This document shows positions 33,181 through 42,936 of a stretch of DNA of 64,000 nucleotides, piece after piece. Made by a program: the position numbers and the translations under genes. Below the pieces are notes generated by a model. It saw only the letters and a list, made by a program, of their open reading frames with translations, made no database searches and was not told the origin of the DNA. Position 1 is the first letter of the stretch. Each line of letters begins with the position of its first letter. This DNA is from Parasphingorhabdus sp. SCSIO 66989 (GTDB lineage: Bacteria; Pseudomonadota; Alphaproteobacteria; Sphingomonadales; Sphingomonadaceae): contig NZ_CP136594.1 of the NCBI RefSeq assembly GCF_032852305.1, positions 1,277,501 to 1,341,500 of the forward strand, read 5' to 3'.

Positions 33181-34788
33181 ATGAAAATGATCGCACCCGT
33201 TTTGACATCGAAACTCGATTTCGAAAGCCCCGAAGCCAAAGCCAATGCGGCGCATAATCGGGAACTAGTAGAGGAATTACGCGGCAAGGTTGCGGTGGCG
33301 GCTTTGGGGGGCTCCGAGGGCAGTCGGGAACGGCATGTGTCGCGCGGCAAGCTGCTGCCACGTGAGCGGGTGGAACGGTTACTTGATCCCGGCTCGCCTT
33401 TTCTCGAGGTTGGCCAGCTCGCCGCCAATGGGCTGTATGACGATGCGGTGCCGGGCGCTGGGCTGATCTGCGGCATTGGCCGCGTTTCCGGGCGGCAGGT
33501 GATGATCGTCTGCAATGACGCCACGGTGAAAGGCGGCACTTACTATCCGCTGACAGTGAAGAAGCATCTGCGGGCGCAGGAGATTGCCGAGCAGAACCAT
33601 CTGCCGTGCATCTATCTGGTCGATAGCGGCGGCGCCAATCTGCCGCATCAGGATGAGGTCTTCCCCGATCGCGAGCATTTCGGTCGTATCTTCTTCAACC
33701 AGGCGAATATGTCGGCGAAACAGATCCCGCAAATCGCCTGCGTCATGGGCAGCTGCACCGCTGGTGGCGCCTATGTGCCCGCCATGTCCGACGAGACGGT
33801 GATTGTCCGCAATCAGGGCACTATTTTCCTCGGCGGTCCGCCGCTGGTGAAGGCAGCGACCGGCGAGGAGATCAGCGCCGAGGATCTGGGCGGCGGAGAT
33901 CTGCATGGCCGCAAATCGGGTGTCGTCGATCATGTCGCCGAGAATGACGAGCATGCGCTGACCATTGTCCGCGATATCGTCTCGCACCTGCCGCAGAGCC
34001 GCGAGCCGGACATTGATCTCTATGAACCGCGCCCGCCCAAATATGACGCCGAGGAGCTCTACGGTATTCTGCCCGAAGATGTTCGCGCGCCCTATGATGT
34101 GAAGGAAATCATCGCGCGGCTGGTCGATGGCAGCGAATTTCACGAATTCAAGGCGCTTTATGGCAGCTCGCTGGTCTGCGGTTTCGCCCATATCTGGGGC
34201 ATGCCGGTGGCGATCCTCGCCAATAACGGCATTTTGTTCAGCGAGAGCGCACAAAAGGGCGCGCATTTTATCGAACTCGCCTGCCAGCGGCGTATCCCGC
34301 TATTGTTCCTGCAGAATATCTCGGGCTTTATGGTCGGCGGCAAATATGAGGCGGAGGGCATCGCCAAACATGGCGCCAAGCTGGTCACCGCTGTCGCCAC
34401 CGCCAGCGTGCCGAAAATCACGGTGCTGATCGGCGGCAGCTTCGGTGCAGGCAATTACGGCATGTGCGGCCGCGCCTACAGCCCACGTTTCCTGTTCTCC
34501 TGGCCCAATAGCCGCATCTCGGTGATGGGCGGCGAACAGGCGGCCAGCGTCCTCGCCACCGTCCACCGTGATGCCGATAGCTGGACCGAGGAAGAGGCTG
34601 AGGCGTTCAAGGCGCCGATCCGCCAGAAATATGAGGATGAAGGCAACCCCTATTACGCCACTGCGCGGCTGTGGGATGACGGTATTATCGATCCGGCCCA
34701 GACGCGAGATGTGTTGGGCTTGGCCTTCGCCGCGACGTTGAATGCGCCAGTAGAGGAGGCGCCTCGATTTGGGGTGTTCCGGATGTGA
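33181..34788 (+). CDS. mccB: Methylcrotonoyl-CoA carboxylase, carboxyltransferase (beta) subunit
   Basis: Carboxyltransferase subunit that carboxylates 3-methylcrotonoyl-CoA in leucine degradation, 535 residues. Signatures are [81 protein letters not shown] and [15 protein letters not shown]. These match MCC beta rather than propionyl-CoA carboxylase beta. The 3' end meets the first of two long repeats, which starts 2 bp after the stop. Confidence 0.95.
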
Positions 34789-34789
34789 G

Positions 34790-34984
34790 AAATCCTCCCC
34801 GGAACGGGGAGGGGACCCATGCGCAGCATGGGGGAGGGGCACCCTCGACATGATAATATGGTGAGAAAATGCGCTATACGGTGAGGCAATTTAGCAAAAT
34901 GGGATGTGTTGGAAGCGACGCAATATCCGGCCTGTGCCCCTCCACCATGCTACGCATGGTCCCCCTCCCCCTAGGGGGAGGATC
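34790..34984. repeat. 195-bp repeat, left copy, ending in the DUF559 ribosome binding site
   Basis: Starts AAATCCTCCCCGGAACGGGG two bases after the mccB stop and ends GGGGGAGGATC immediately before the ATG of the DUF559 gene. Each end is a hairpin (CCTCCCC...GGGGAGG), and the two ends are inverted copies of one another (GGACC.ATGCG.AGCATGG). The interior carries ATGCG.TAT and AAATGGGATGT.. blocks shared with the right copy. Confidence 0.85.
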
Positions 34985-35419
34985 ATGATTAACGGTCCTC
35001 GCGATACGGTAAAACGCGCTCGCAAATTGCGTAGCGAAATGAGCCTGCCGGAGACTATCTTATGGCGCGAGTTGCGCAAGCGGCCCGGTGGCTTCAAATA
35101 TCGGCGGCAGCATCCGGCCGGGCAGTATGTGCTGGACTTTTATTGCGCGGCTGCAAAACTCGCAATCGAGATAGATGGTCAGGCTCATAATAGCGAACGG
35201 GCAGCGCAAACCGATGCGCGGCGGAGCGAATTTCTGCGTTCACAGCATGTGGCGGTTTTGCGGGTTCCGGCAAAAGCAGTGCTCGAGAATTTGGAAGGTG
35301 CGGTTATGCGGATCGTGGAAGTGTGTAAAGATAGGGTCGAGAGGTTGAGCAAGCTAAATCCTCCCCGGAACGGGGAGGGGACCCATCCGCAGGATGGGGG
35401 AGGGGCGCCTTCGACATGA
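34985..35419 (+). CDS. DUF559 (Vsr-like) endonuclease-domain protein
   Basis: 144 residues. The DUF559 domain shows RSEMSLPETILWRELRKRP, FKYRRQHPAGQYVLDFYC and KLAIEIDGQAHNSERAAQTD, with the Asp of DFYC and Glu/Asp of IEIDGQ as likely metal ligands of a PD-(D/E)XK-type fold related to very-short-patch-repair nucleases. The last about 21 residues (NPPRNGEGTHPQDGGG...) are encoded by the following repeat copy. The gene sits between mccB and mccA and has no metabolic link to them. The start ATG is set by GGGGGAGG seven bases upstream. Confidence 0.88.
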   Translation: MINGPRDTVKRARKLRSEMSLPETILWRELRKRPGGFKYRRQHPAGQYVLDFYCAAAKLAIEIDGQAHNSERAAQTDARRSEFLRSQHVAVLRVPAKAVLENLEGAVMRIVEVCKDRVERLSKLNPPRNGEGTHPQDGGGAPST

Positions 35420-35552
35420 ACAAGATGATGCAAAGGAGTGCGATATCTTACGATAAAGGTTGCGAGATGGGATGTAATCGAAACACAGCAATATGTGGCC
35501 TGTGCCCCTCCACCGTCTTCGACGGTCCCCCTCCCCGTGTCGGGGAGGAACT
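35356..35552. repeat. 195-bp repeat, right copy, ending in the mccA ribosome binding site
   Basis: Second copy of the element at 34790-34984, same orientation and nearly the same length. It begins AAATCCTCCCCGGAACGGGG inside the DUF559 reading frame and ends CGGGGAGGAACT just before the mccA ATG. Shared blocks include GGGGAGGGGACCCAT, GGGGGAGGGGC, CGACATGA, GATGGGATGT/AATGGGATGT, GCAATAT and GGCCTGTGCCCCTCCACC. Confidence 0.85.
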
Positions 35553-37481
35553 ATGATCCAGTCCCTCCTCATCGCCAATCGCGGCGAGATTGCCTGCCGT
35601 ATCATCCGTACCGCGCGCGATATGGGTATCCGCACTGTTGCGGTCTATTCCGATGCTGATGCCAAGGCGCTGCATGTGCGTCAGGCGGATGAAGCGGTAC
35701 ATATCGGGCCGTCTCCGGCGGCGGAATCCTATTTGGTGGGTGAGAAGATCATCGCCGCCGCCAAGGAGACCGGGGCCGACGCGATCCATCCGGGCTATGG
35801 TTTCCTTTCGGAAAATGCCGATTTTGCGCAAGACGTGATCGATGCCGGGCTGATCTGGGTCGGGCCGAAGCCGGAATCGATCCGCGCCATGGGTCTGAAG
35901 GATGCTGCGAAGAAGCTGATGGATGAGGCCGGTGTGCCGACCACGCCGGGCTATCTGGGCGATAATCAGGACCCTGATCATCTCGCCAGCGAGGCCGAGC
36001 GCATCGGTTATCCGGTGCTGATCAAAGCGGTTGCGGGTGGCGGCGGCAAGGGTATGCGCAAGGTGGATGCGGCGACGGATTTTGCCGATGCGCTGACCAG
36101 CTGCAAGCGCGAGGCGATGGCGAGTTTTGGCAATGATGTCTGCCTGATCGAGAAATGGATCGAGAGCCCGCGCCATATCGAGGTGCAGATTTTCGGTGAT
36201 AGCCATGGCAATGTCGTTCACCTGTTTGAGCGCGATTGCTCGCTGCAACGCCGCCATCAAAAGGTCATTGAAGAAGCGCCAGCCCCCGGCATGGACGAGG
36301 CCACCCGCGAGACCGTCTGCGGCGCAGCTGTGCGTGCGGCGCAAGCGGTGAACTATGAAGGCGCGGGCACGATCGAGTTTATCGCCGACGGCTCGGCAGG
36401 GCTGAGCGCCGACAAAATCTGGTTTATGGAGATGAACACCCGGTTGCAGGTTGAGCATCCGGTGACCGAGGAGATTACCGGGGTTGATCTGGTAGAATGG
36501 CAGCTGCGTGTGGCGTCCAGCGAGGCAATCCCGCTGGTGCAGGACGAGCTGAGTATTAACGGCCATGCGATAGAGGCGCGGCTCTATGCGGAAGACCCGG
36601 CGAGTGGGTTTCTGCCGAGTATTGGGCGGTTGGAGCATCTGGACTTTGGGCCTGCCTATCGCATTGATACCGGCGTGCAGCAAGATGCTGACATATCGCC
36701 ATTTTATGATCCCATGATCGCTAAGGTTATCGCCTTTGGTTCGGATCGCGAAGAAGCCATTGAAGGGCTGTCAGAAGCATTGCAGGCAATTGAGATATGG
36801 CCGGTAAAAACAAATGCGGCCTTTCTCCTGAAGGCCGCCACACATCCCGATTTTGTCGATGCCGAGCTGGATACTGGGTTTATTGAGCGTAACCTAGAGG
36901 CGCTTGTGCCAGTATCAGAAATCAAAGATTCCACCTGGAATGCAGCGGCCAAGTTTGCGCTGGCAGATGGCGATAAAGACCTTGGCTATTTACCGTTAGA
37001 TTTCAGGCTGAATGCGGAACCGGTAAAGCGCGTTACGCTTGGCCATGATGGTGAGACCCGGACGCTGGATATGCTTGATAAGCAGGAAATTCTGATCAGA
37101 TCAGATTTCAGTGGTAAGGACATGGTTCTCTCAGAAGAGTATGGAGAGAATGTCAGCTATACCGCACACATGGATGCTGAACAGATAGTGGTTTTCTCTG
37201 AGGGGCAGGCAGTCGCTTTTGATCGTGCGGTCAGGGGTTCTGGTCAAGGCACTATTTCTGACGGCACCATACTCTCCCCCATGCCCGGCAAAATTATCGC
37301 CGTTGCGGTGGCCGAGGGCGACAGCGTTGCCAAAGGCGACAAGCTGGTGACGCTGGAGGCGATGAAGATGGAGCATACACTGACCGCGCCGTTTGATGGC
37401 AATGTCGCAAGCCTCTCCGCCAGCGAAGGCGCGCAGGTCAGCGAAGGCGTGGCGCTGGTTGAGATTGTTGGGGGTGAGTGA
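35553..37481 (+). CDS. mccA: Methylcrotonoyl-CoA carboxylase, biotin-containing (alpha) subunit
   Basis: 642 residues: biotin carboxylase N-domain (LLIANRGEIACRIIRTARDM), ATP-grasp (KAVAGGGGKGMRKV, FERDCSLQRRHQKVIEEAPA, MEMNTRLQVEHPVTEEITG), linker, and C-terminal biotin carrier with the modified Lys in LEAMKMEHT. It provides carboxybiotin to MccB. The ATG at 35553 is fixed by GGGGAGGA in the repeat upstream. Between about 36700 and 37250 the codons look less GC-rich than on either side. Confidence 0.95.
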   Translation: MIQSLLIANRGEIACRIIRTARDMGIRTVAVYSDADAKALHVRQADEAVHIGPSPAAESYLVGEKIIAAAKETGADAIHPGYGFLSENADFAQDVIDAGLIWVGPKPESIRAMGLKDAAKKLMDEAGVPTTPGYLGDNQDPDHLASEAERIGYPVLIKAVAGGGGKGMRKVDAATDFADALTSCKREAMASFGNDVCLIEKWIESPRHIEVQIFGDSHGNVVHLFERDCSLQRRHQKVIEEAPAPGMDEATRETVCGAAVRAAQAVNYEGAGTIEFIADGSAGLSADKIWFMEMNTRLQVEHPVTEEITGVDLVEWQLRVASSEAIPLVQDELSINGHAIEARLYAEDPASGFLPSIGRLEHLDFGPAYRIDTGVQQDADISPFYDPMIAKVIAFGSDREEAIEGLSEALQAIEIWPVKTNAAFLLKAATHPDFVDAELDTGFIERNLEALVPVSEIKDSTWNAAAKFALADGDKDLGYLPLDFRLNAEPVKRVTLGHDGETRTLDMLDKQEILIRSDFSGKDMVLSEEYGENVSYTAHMDAEQIVVFSEGQAVAFDRAVRGSGQGTISDGTILSPMPGKIIAVAVAEGDSVAKGDKLVTLEAMKMEHTLTAPFDGNVASLSASEGAQVSEGVALVEIVGGE

Positions 37482-37684
37482 ATCTCCTCCCCATTTATGG
37501 GGAGGGGGACCGCCGAAGGTGGTGGAGGGGGCGAAGCCGCAGGCGAGCTTAGCTGCGGTTGTTACCATCGCTCCGCGCCTGGCGGCGCGACCCCTCCGTC
37601 ATCCACCTACGCCCCTTCGACAAGCTCAGGGGCTTCGGCGGATGCCACCTCCCCATTGCTGCGCAACGGTGAGGAGATAGAGTG
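37482..37684. repeat. Third intercistronic inverted-repeat element, ending in a ribosome binding site
   Basis: Starts just after the mccA stop with CTCCTCCCCATTTATGGGGA and closes with CCACCTCCCCATTGC...GGTGAGGAG, a diverged inverted counterpart. Inside are GGACCGCCGAAGGTGGTGGA and the TTCGACAAGCTCAGG unit. Its right end supplies GGTGAGGAG ahead of the next gene, repeating the architecture of the two copies around the DUF559 gene. Its core sequence differs from theirs. Confidence 0.7.
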
Positions 37685-42757: not shown

Positions 42758-42768
42758 GGAAACCATCT

Positions 42769-42918
42769 CCCCTCCTCTTCAGAGGAGGGGCAGTGAGACT
42801 TAGCGAGCGCAGCGAGCTTTAGTCGCAGCGGGGTGGTGTTGCGGCACGCCTTGAATTTGCCGGCGCGAGCTCACCTGCGGTTCGCCACCACCCCAACCCC
42901 TCCTCTGAAGAGGAGGGG
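42769..42918. repeat. 150-bp intergenic inverted-repeat element
   Basis: Both ends are 22-bp hairpins (CCCCTCCTCTTCAGAGGAGG... and CCCCTCCTCTGAAGAGGAGG...). The left part continues GTGAGACTTAGCG...TTTAGTCGCAGCGGGG, matching the 26033 and 29925 copies. The right part CGCCACCACCCCAAC closes the outer palindrome. It lies between convergent genes. Confidence 0.8.
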
Positions 42919-42936
42919 CTTATGATACCGCGAAGA

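Follow-up and report, generated by a model that had tools for sequence, protein, structure and literature searches.

A REPIN-like family of palindromic elements associated with DUF559 nuclease genes in Sphingomonadales

REP-like palindromes are among the most common repeats of bacterial genomes, and their source outside the RAYT-associated families is unexplained. In REPIN-RAYT systems, short palindromes are paired in inverted orientation and dispersed between genes in tens to hundreds of copies, together with a dedicated HUH transposase gene that is flanked by the same ends; a genome may contain several subfamilies, each with its own enzyme gene. A survey of REPs published in 2013 reported alphaproteobacterial REPs carrying a CGTC tag and lacking a dedicated transposase (PMC3733652). 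DUF559 proteins, for their part, form a large family without an agreed function, and pairing them with palindromes provides each with a candidate partner.

Here, we analysed a window of 64,000 nucleotides from the genome of Parasphingorhabdus sp. SCSIO 66989, in which a DUF559 gene is located between an mccB-like and an mccA-like gene and is flanked by repeats of about 195 bp. No report tying DUF559 to palindromic repeats was found in the open-access literature; as subscription papers were mostly outside this search, an earlier description is possible.

The mccB-mccA locus and the anatomy of its repeats

The features of the locus, in coordinates of the window, are the following:

33181..34788, + strand: mccB-like gene, upstream flank of the host operon (open reading frame)
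34790..34984, + strand: left REPIN-like element, with a hairpin end, a spacer and a second hairpin end in inverse orientation; delimited from repeats, inverted pairs, DNA fold and BLAST
34794..34812, no strand: CCTCCCCGGAACGGGGAGG, left-hand outer hairpin of the left element
34964..34981, no strand: CCTCCCCCTAGGGGGAGG, right-hand outer hairpin of the left element
34974..34981, + strand: Shine-Dalgarno sequence of the DUF559 gene, GGGGGAGG, made by the 3' arm of the hairpin, 3 nt 5' of the ATG at 34985
34985..35419, + strand: DUF559 (PF04480) gene for a nuclease of the Vsr/EDxHD fold, 144 aa
35356..35549, + strand: right REPIN-like element, whose first ~61 nt code for the DUF559 C-terminus
35542..35549, + strand: Shine-Dalgarno sequence of mccA, GGGGAGGA, 3 nt 5' of the ATG at 35553
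35553..37481, + strand: mccA-like gene, downstream flank of the host operon, with the biotinyl motif EAMKM
37484..37677, + strand: third REPIN-like element of the type of the left and right ones, degenerate, immediately behind mccA; its loop contains a CCTTCGACAAGCTCAGG palindrome
42763..42921, + strand: REPIN-like element of a second subfamily (CCCCTCCTC)

The sequence-only reading had described two repeats of about 195 bp, in the same orientation, on either side of DUF559 between mccB and mccA, and the copies at 34790-34984 and 35356-35549 bear this out. The left copy does start just past the mccB stop codon (TGA, 34786-34788), with an offset of 1 nt and not 2. As had also been stated, each copy closes with a hairpin and a Shine-Dalgarno sequence before an ATG, that of DUF559 and that of mccA, respectively; the sequence is formed by a G-rich hairpin arm and lies 3 nt from the ATG. 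The right copy does code for the last ~21 residues of DUF559 (LNPPRNGEGTHPQDGGGAPST), the stop codon at 35417-35419 falling within the repeat. In relatives, mccB homologues ending in ...FRM* are found 5' of the mccA homologue. The element at 42763-42921 exhibits 91% identity over 160 nt to a copy adjoining the DUF559 gene of the recN-ligA junction, about 200 kb away.

Each copy of ~195 bp is a complete palindromic element, comprising two inverted hairpin ends and a spacer, and is REPIN-like. An outer hairpin (CCTCCCC-n-GGGGAGG) is followed by a linker, an inner hairpin, an arm of the GGGGAGGGGC type and a spacer of ~90 nt, after which the same parts return in inverse order. Two palindromes in inverted orientation forming one unit are present in this genome as inverted pairs and as full-length copies. 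The repeats at the locus are not chance, as judged from single-strand folding well beyond that of shuffles (left copy, folded as DNA: z = -8.2; right copy, folded as RNA: z = -7.6), from 122 CCTCCCC-n-GGGGAGG hairpins in the genome versus 0 for the reversed-pattern control, and from 67 genomic BLAST matches to the left copy, of which six besides the right copy are near full length, with more occurring as paired halves. A comparison of the repeat with Rfam yielded just two matches, to miRNAs of plants or insects and well under the cut-off, which we took as chance hits on a long palindrome. A plasmid search returned only scattered copies of the hairpin, in plasmids of Sphingomonas, together with a single endonuclease gene.

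The left and right copies match at 94% over their first 64 nt, without gaps, and at 79% in the 3' part; full-length identity is 73% (77% by BLAST). Other pairs of copies in this genome are 52-75% alike, so that the flanking pair is hardly closer than these and does not go back to a single recent composite insertion. A composite transposon with identical direct repeats was ruled out on the same 73%. The cassette had been read as one gene with two direct repeats, but this is not the unit: each direct repeat is itself a complete REPIN-like element, and the common unit elsewhere is a single terminal inverted repeat on each side of DUF559. The locus, with a complete unit on each side of the gene, is a variant of this commoner end-gene-end form.

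With regard to the protein, the domain was assigned to PF04480 with an E value of 2.3e-27 and 95.4 bits (curated cut-off 20.6). The AlphaFold model (pLDDT 87.8) exhibits as its fold neighbours, in order of rank, the DUF559 structure 3hrl, the homing endonuclease I-Bth0305I and PvuRts1I, with Vsr at rank 24. Based on this model, the label "Vsr-like" is fair, a homing endonuclease being the nearer characterised relative. Residues E23, D51, E62, D64, H68 and D77, which are of the catalytic type, are all present and are invariant in 18 homologues. PADLOC gave only weak matches to nuclease domains, and no known transposase was found inside the unit among its open reading frames and by domain search.

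DUF559 genes and flanking palindromes across genomes

Inverted repeats were sought between the two flanks of DUF559 genes, without any sequence model, in 20-kb stretches from 33 relatives and from this genome. In Sphingomonadales, 55 of the 63 DUF559 genes exhibit flanking inverted repeats above the 99th percentile of 756 control positions, the remaining eight having no clear flanking repeats. A score of at least 20 is reached by 78% of the DUF559 genes versus 0.45% of 881 ordinary genes of the same stretches (4/881, one of the four being a DUF559 gene itself), and DUF559 ranks first in 58 of 63 stretches, where 4.5 are expected. The flanking ends align over 20-115 nt and follow one plan, an outward-pointing hairpin end on each side, in several sequence families; hairpin-end, DUF559, inverted hairpin-end is the commonest arrangement in relatives. 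Reversed patterns and ordinary genes served as controls for the G-rich composition. The loci come mostly from the best DUF559 matches, so that weaker or longer DUF559 proteins are under-sampled.

Whether other DUF559 genes carry the repeats had been named as a check, and they do, in relatives as well as in this genome, where all three (at this locus, at recN-ligA and beside rpoZ) are bracketed by hairpins. The ends of the rpoZ copy are diverged; the score of their inverted match, 14.5, falls slightly short of the 99% threshold in the blind test. In a sample across Pseudomonadota, such flanks are present at 18 of the 30 best DUF559 loci, 12 being without clear repeats. The association of DUF559 with palindromes is close to certain.

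The proposal that the repeats supply ribosome sites extends well beyond the window: a repeat-type, G-rich Shine-Dalgarno sequence precedes a plausible start in 31 of 64 DUF559 genes versus 40 of 847 other genes, that is, in about half versus 5%. The use of a repeat arm as ribosome site is therefore a general feature of the units.

Hairpins of two patterns were counted in 81 genomes, DUF559 being scored as present with a match of at least 80 bits. The median is 28 hairpins in the 45 genomes with DUF559 versus 0 in the 36 without (p=5e-13), the latter never exceeding 14. Hairpins and DUF559 correlate with a Spearman coefficient of 0.83 over the 81 genomes, and the relation holds inside the family as well as in the order's other families. 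Nine genomes with DUF559 have fewer than five hairpins of the two patterns.

These counts bear on the idea that the hairpins are RNA-level devices, such as terminators, mRNA stabilisers or ribosome-site carriers, found near any small, recently acquired gene and only incidentally near DUF559. The elements do carry ribosome sites and do fold strongly as RNA; nevertheless, the rarity of such flanking pairs among the 881 other genes and the way in which hairpin counts follow DUF559 across genomes make this explanation highly improbable.

Y1 transposases of the RAYT type occur in 20 of the 81 genomes and are missing from most of the hairpin-rich ones, which disfavours RAYT as the mover; this genome has a single weak Y1_Tnp match, far from the locus. 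The same data weigh on a second alternative, in which DUF559 would be a parasite that lands on, or homes to, existing REP-like elements that owe their movement to another agent. A homing endonuclease among its fold neighbours and the position of the window gene between two complete elements would be in line with this, and the insertion of ISPpu9 in REPs provides a published precedent (PMC8450116). However, genomes without DUF559 are nearly free of hairpins, the usual unit has inverted ends as its own termini, and no other mover is evident, given the distribution of Y1 transposases. We consider the parasite explanation unlikely.

The ends were sorted by their stems into three types (CCTCCCC, CCCTCTCC and CCCCTCC) and compared with a tree of 69 DUF559 domains, 62 of which could be typed; the tree is built on few columns and has weak forks. 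The end type changes 12 times on this tree, versus a mean of 29 with shuffled labels. Ten genomes contain DUF559 genes of different types, and shuffling within genomes gives a mean of 23 changes, with 0 of 300 shuffles reaching 12. The window gene belongs to an 18-row clade, starred on the tree, whose typed members are all of one type. The repeat type tracks the protein tree, not the genome. This shows that gene and ends either travel together or recognise each other, the tree being compatible with both. The match between scattered short copies and the type of the resident DUF559 is a trend only (p=0.08).

Occupied and empty sites

The sequence-only reading had proposed insertion at intercistronic sites and had asked whether DUF559 is fixed between mccB and mccA. 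Junctions in relatives support the former and answer the latter in the negative. The gap between the mccB stop and the mccA start is 764 nt here versus 2 nt in G020, 4 nt in G016 and 15 nt in G014, and the junction has unrelated contents in other relatives. The recN-ligA junction likewise measures ~575 bp with DUF559 in this genome, ~399 bp with another gene in the congener G001 and ~15 bp in the congener G002. Short units also differ: the element at 42763-42921 is absent in G001, and two other sites of this genome have units that are missing in G001/G002. No clear target-site duplication was found at the few empty sites compared, where the flanks have diverged. A genome-contig search with a single DUF559 protein returned five loci.

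In Blastomonas aquatica (L302), an end-DUF559-end unit occupies the mccB-mccA junction. At the same junction in G003 (L160), a left end stands alone, nearly the same over ~59 nt as that of the Blastomonas unit, and a GIY-YIG cassette follows it; G003 has lost the DUF559 gene and the right end. The Blastomonas protein is just 52% identical to that of the window, whereas the closest relatives (67-71%) are found at other sites, in G012 at ivd-mccB and in Erythrobacter HI0063 at a different locus. The mccB-mccA junction may therefore have been entered more than once.

The genome G048 contains three near-identical DUF559 units at three unrelated sites (L084, L085, L086). Outside the hairpins, the units remain similar for another ~39 and ~31 nt, and these extensions include the inverted pair AGCGGAC/GTCCGCT; what moves is therefore not exactly the inverted ends. 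Either the moving unit would be larger than the hairpin ends, or the target would be a specific repeat. A search for empty sites with the joined flanks of these units found occupied sites only.

Such variation also has to be set against a role in repair, in which DUF559 would be a domesticated Vsr-like enzyme acting on hairpin damage or methylated sites, with its genes embedded in repeats for that reason. The Caulobacter DUF559 protein VsrA was linked to cytosine methylation and SOS induction (PMC12907096), and Vsr is detectable among the fold neighbours. In contrast, DUF559 copy number and position differ among congeners, the repeat type follows the protein clade, a single genome has the gene three times, at sites unrelated to one another, and no methyltransferase was observed next to the gene. 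We regard a repair role as quite improbable.

Palindromic elements of Rickettsia are known to be inserted in frame within genes. An element reminiscent of these was observed in the essential gene ligA (L001:2387-2493), where a hairpin element of ~105 bp adds ~35 residues in frame (SPLPFRGGVGGG...PHPNPSPKGEG); it is absent in G002.

Proposed mechanism and comparison with known systems

We regard it as probable, though far from assured, that the elements constitute a REPIN-like family of mobile DNA in which the DUF559 nuclease is the dedicated enzyme, in the role that RAYT plays elsewhere; recognition, cleavage and transposition chemistry are parts of this reading that we infer. The autonomous form would consist of a hairpin-end, the DUF559 gene and an inverted hairpin-end, and the ~195-bp repeats would be the non-autonomous form, with both ends closed on a short spacer. 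At the window locus, DUF559 is bracketed by two complete short forms. The nuclease would recognise the G/C-rich hairpin ends of its own family, probably in folded, single-stranded or cruciform DNA. Cutting would permit copying of the element into new sites, or its excision from them, mainly immediately 3' of stop codons; in this way, the nuclease would move or maintain both the gene-bearing and the short forms. The G-rich arm of the hairpin then acts as a Shine-Dalgarno sequence for the nuclease and for the next gene, so that the operon stays readable. Repeat and protein types would, however, co-vary in the same way if gene and ends merely travelled together.

The units also illustrate how a small element can enter an operon without silencing it, the ribosome site being carried in the hairpin.

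Two other nuclease families were observed beside inverted repeats. Orphan GIY-YIG genes are bracketed by inverted copies of other palindromes at 19 of the 30 best PF01541 loci, a count that has no gene controls of its own. The palindromes at these loci (L160, L161, L187-L216), some of them CGTC-like, include CGTC-REP-like GTCATTCCCGCGAAAGCGGGAATCC, CACCCTGAACTTGTTTCAGGGTC and CCTGAGCTTGTCGAAGG, and a CCTTCGACAAGCTCAGG palindrome of the GIY-YIG-linked kind is nested at 37614-37636 of the window, in the loop of the element behind mccA. The GIY-YIG nuclease is a candidate enzyme for the CGTC REPs. Genes of the GxxExxY family (PDDEXK_3, PF13366; L287-L300) exhibit non-palindromic inverted repeats of the CACGCAAAGACGCTAAGACGCAAAG type at 10 of 14 loci, again without gene controls of their own. 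Eight copies are present in the Parasphingorhabdus genome and none in its two congeners. Beside rpoZ (L002:2381-2457), a 32-nt inverted pair of TTAGTGCACACAAAGCCACGAAGACACTAAG, 13 nt apart, has the look of a short, non-autonomous version of the repeat linked to GxxExxY. The bracketing of both families suggests a broader class of nuclease-linked short elements. A tentative proposal, to which we give somewhat less than an even chance, is that DUF559 nucleases across Pseudomonadota and, in parallel, orphan GIY-YIG and GxxExxY (PDDEXK_3) nucleases move a large and so far undescribed class of short inverted-repeat elements, CGTC REPs included. Such elements would be bacterial mobile DNA driven by nucleases of the restriction or homing type, and not by DDE, HUH, serine or tyrosine transposases.

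Among described systems, Caulobacter VsrA resembles the present case as a DUF559-domain protein, but the work on it concerned mismatch repair and a link of the nuclease to cytosine methylation, with flanking repeats unmentioned in the accessible part of the source (PMC12907096). I-Bth0305I, of the EDxHD family, is also the product of a mobile nuclease gene and has the nearest PDB fold outside DUF559; in contrast, the DUF559 gene is placed between palindromes instead of inside an intron and shows no sign of a single allelic target. MITEs and their parent insertion sequences have terminal inverted repeats common to a gene-bearing form and short non-autonomous copies, as observed here, whereas the present elements exhibit hairpin ends, no known transposase and no clear target-site duplication. 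The CGTC REPs are likewise abundant palindrome pairs in Alphaproteobacteria (PMC3733652), but differ in sequence, and the candidate enzyme of the elements described here is DUF559.

With regard to REPIN-RAYT, the system shares the features given at the outset: inverted-paired, intergenic and dispersed short palindromes in tens to hundreds of copies, an enzyme gene flanked by the same ends and, within one genome, several subfamilies that each have an enzyme gene of their own. The GTAG/CGTC tag is absent from the palindrome ends, which read AAATCCTCCCC...GGGGAGGAT or are of the CCCTCTCCC / CCCCTCCC types. As both the tag and the HUH enzyme are missing, the DUF559 system was not filed as a member of REPIN-RAYT. 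Its enzyme is a Vsr/EDxHD-type PD-(D/E)XK nuclease and not an HUH transposase, its palindromes are longer, and its ends carry ribosome sites.
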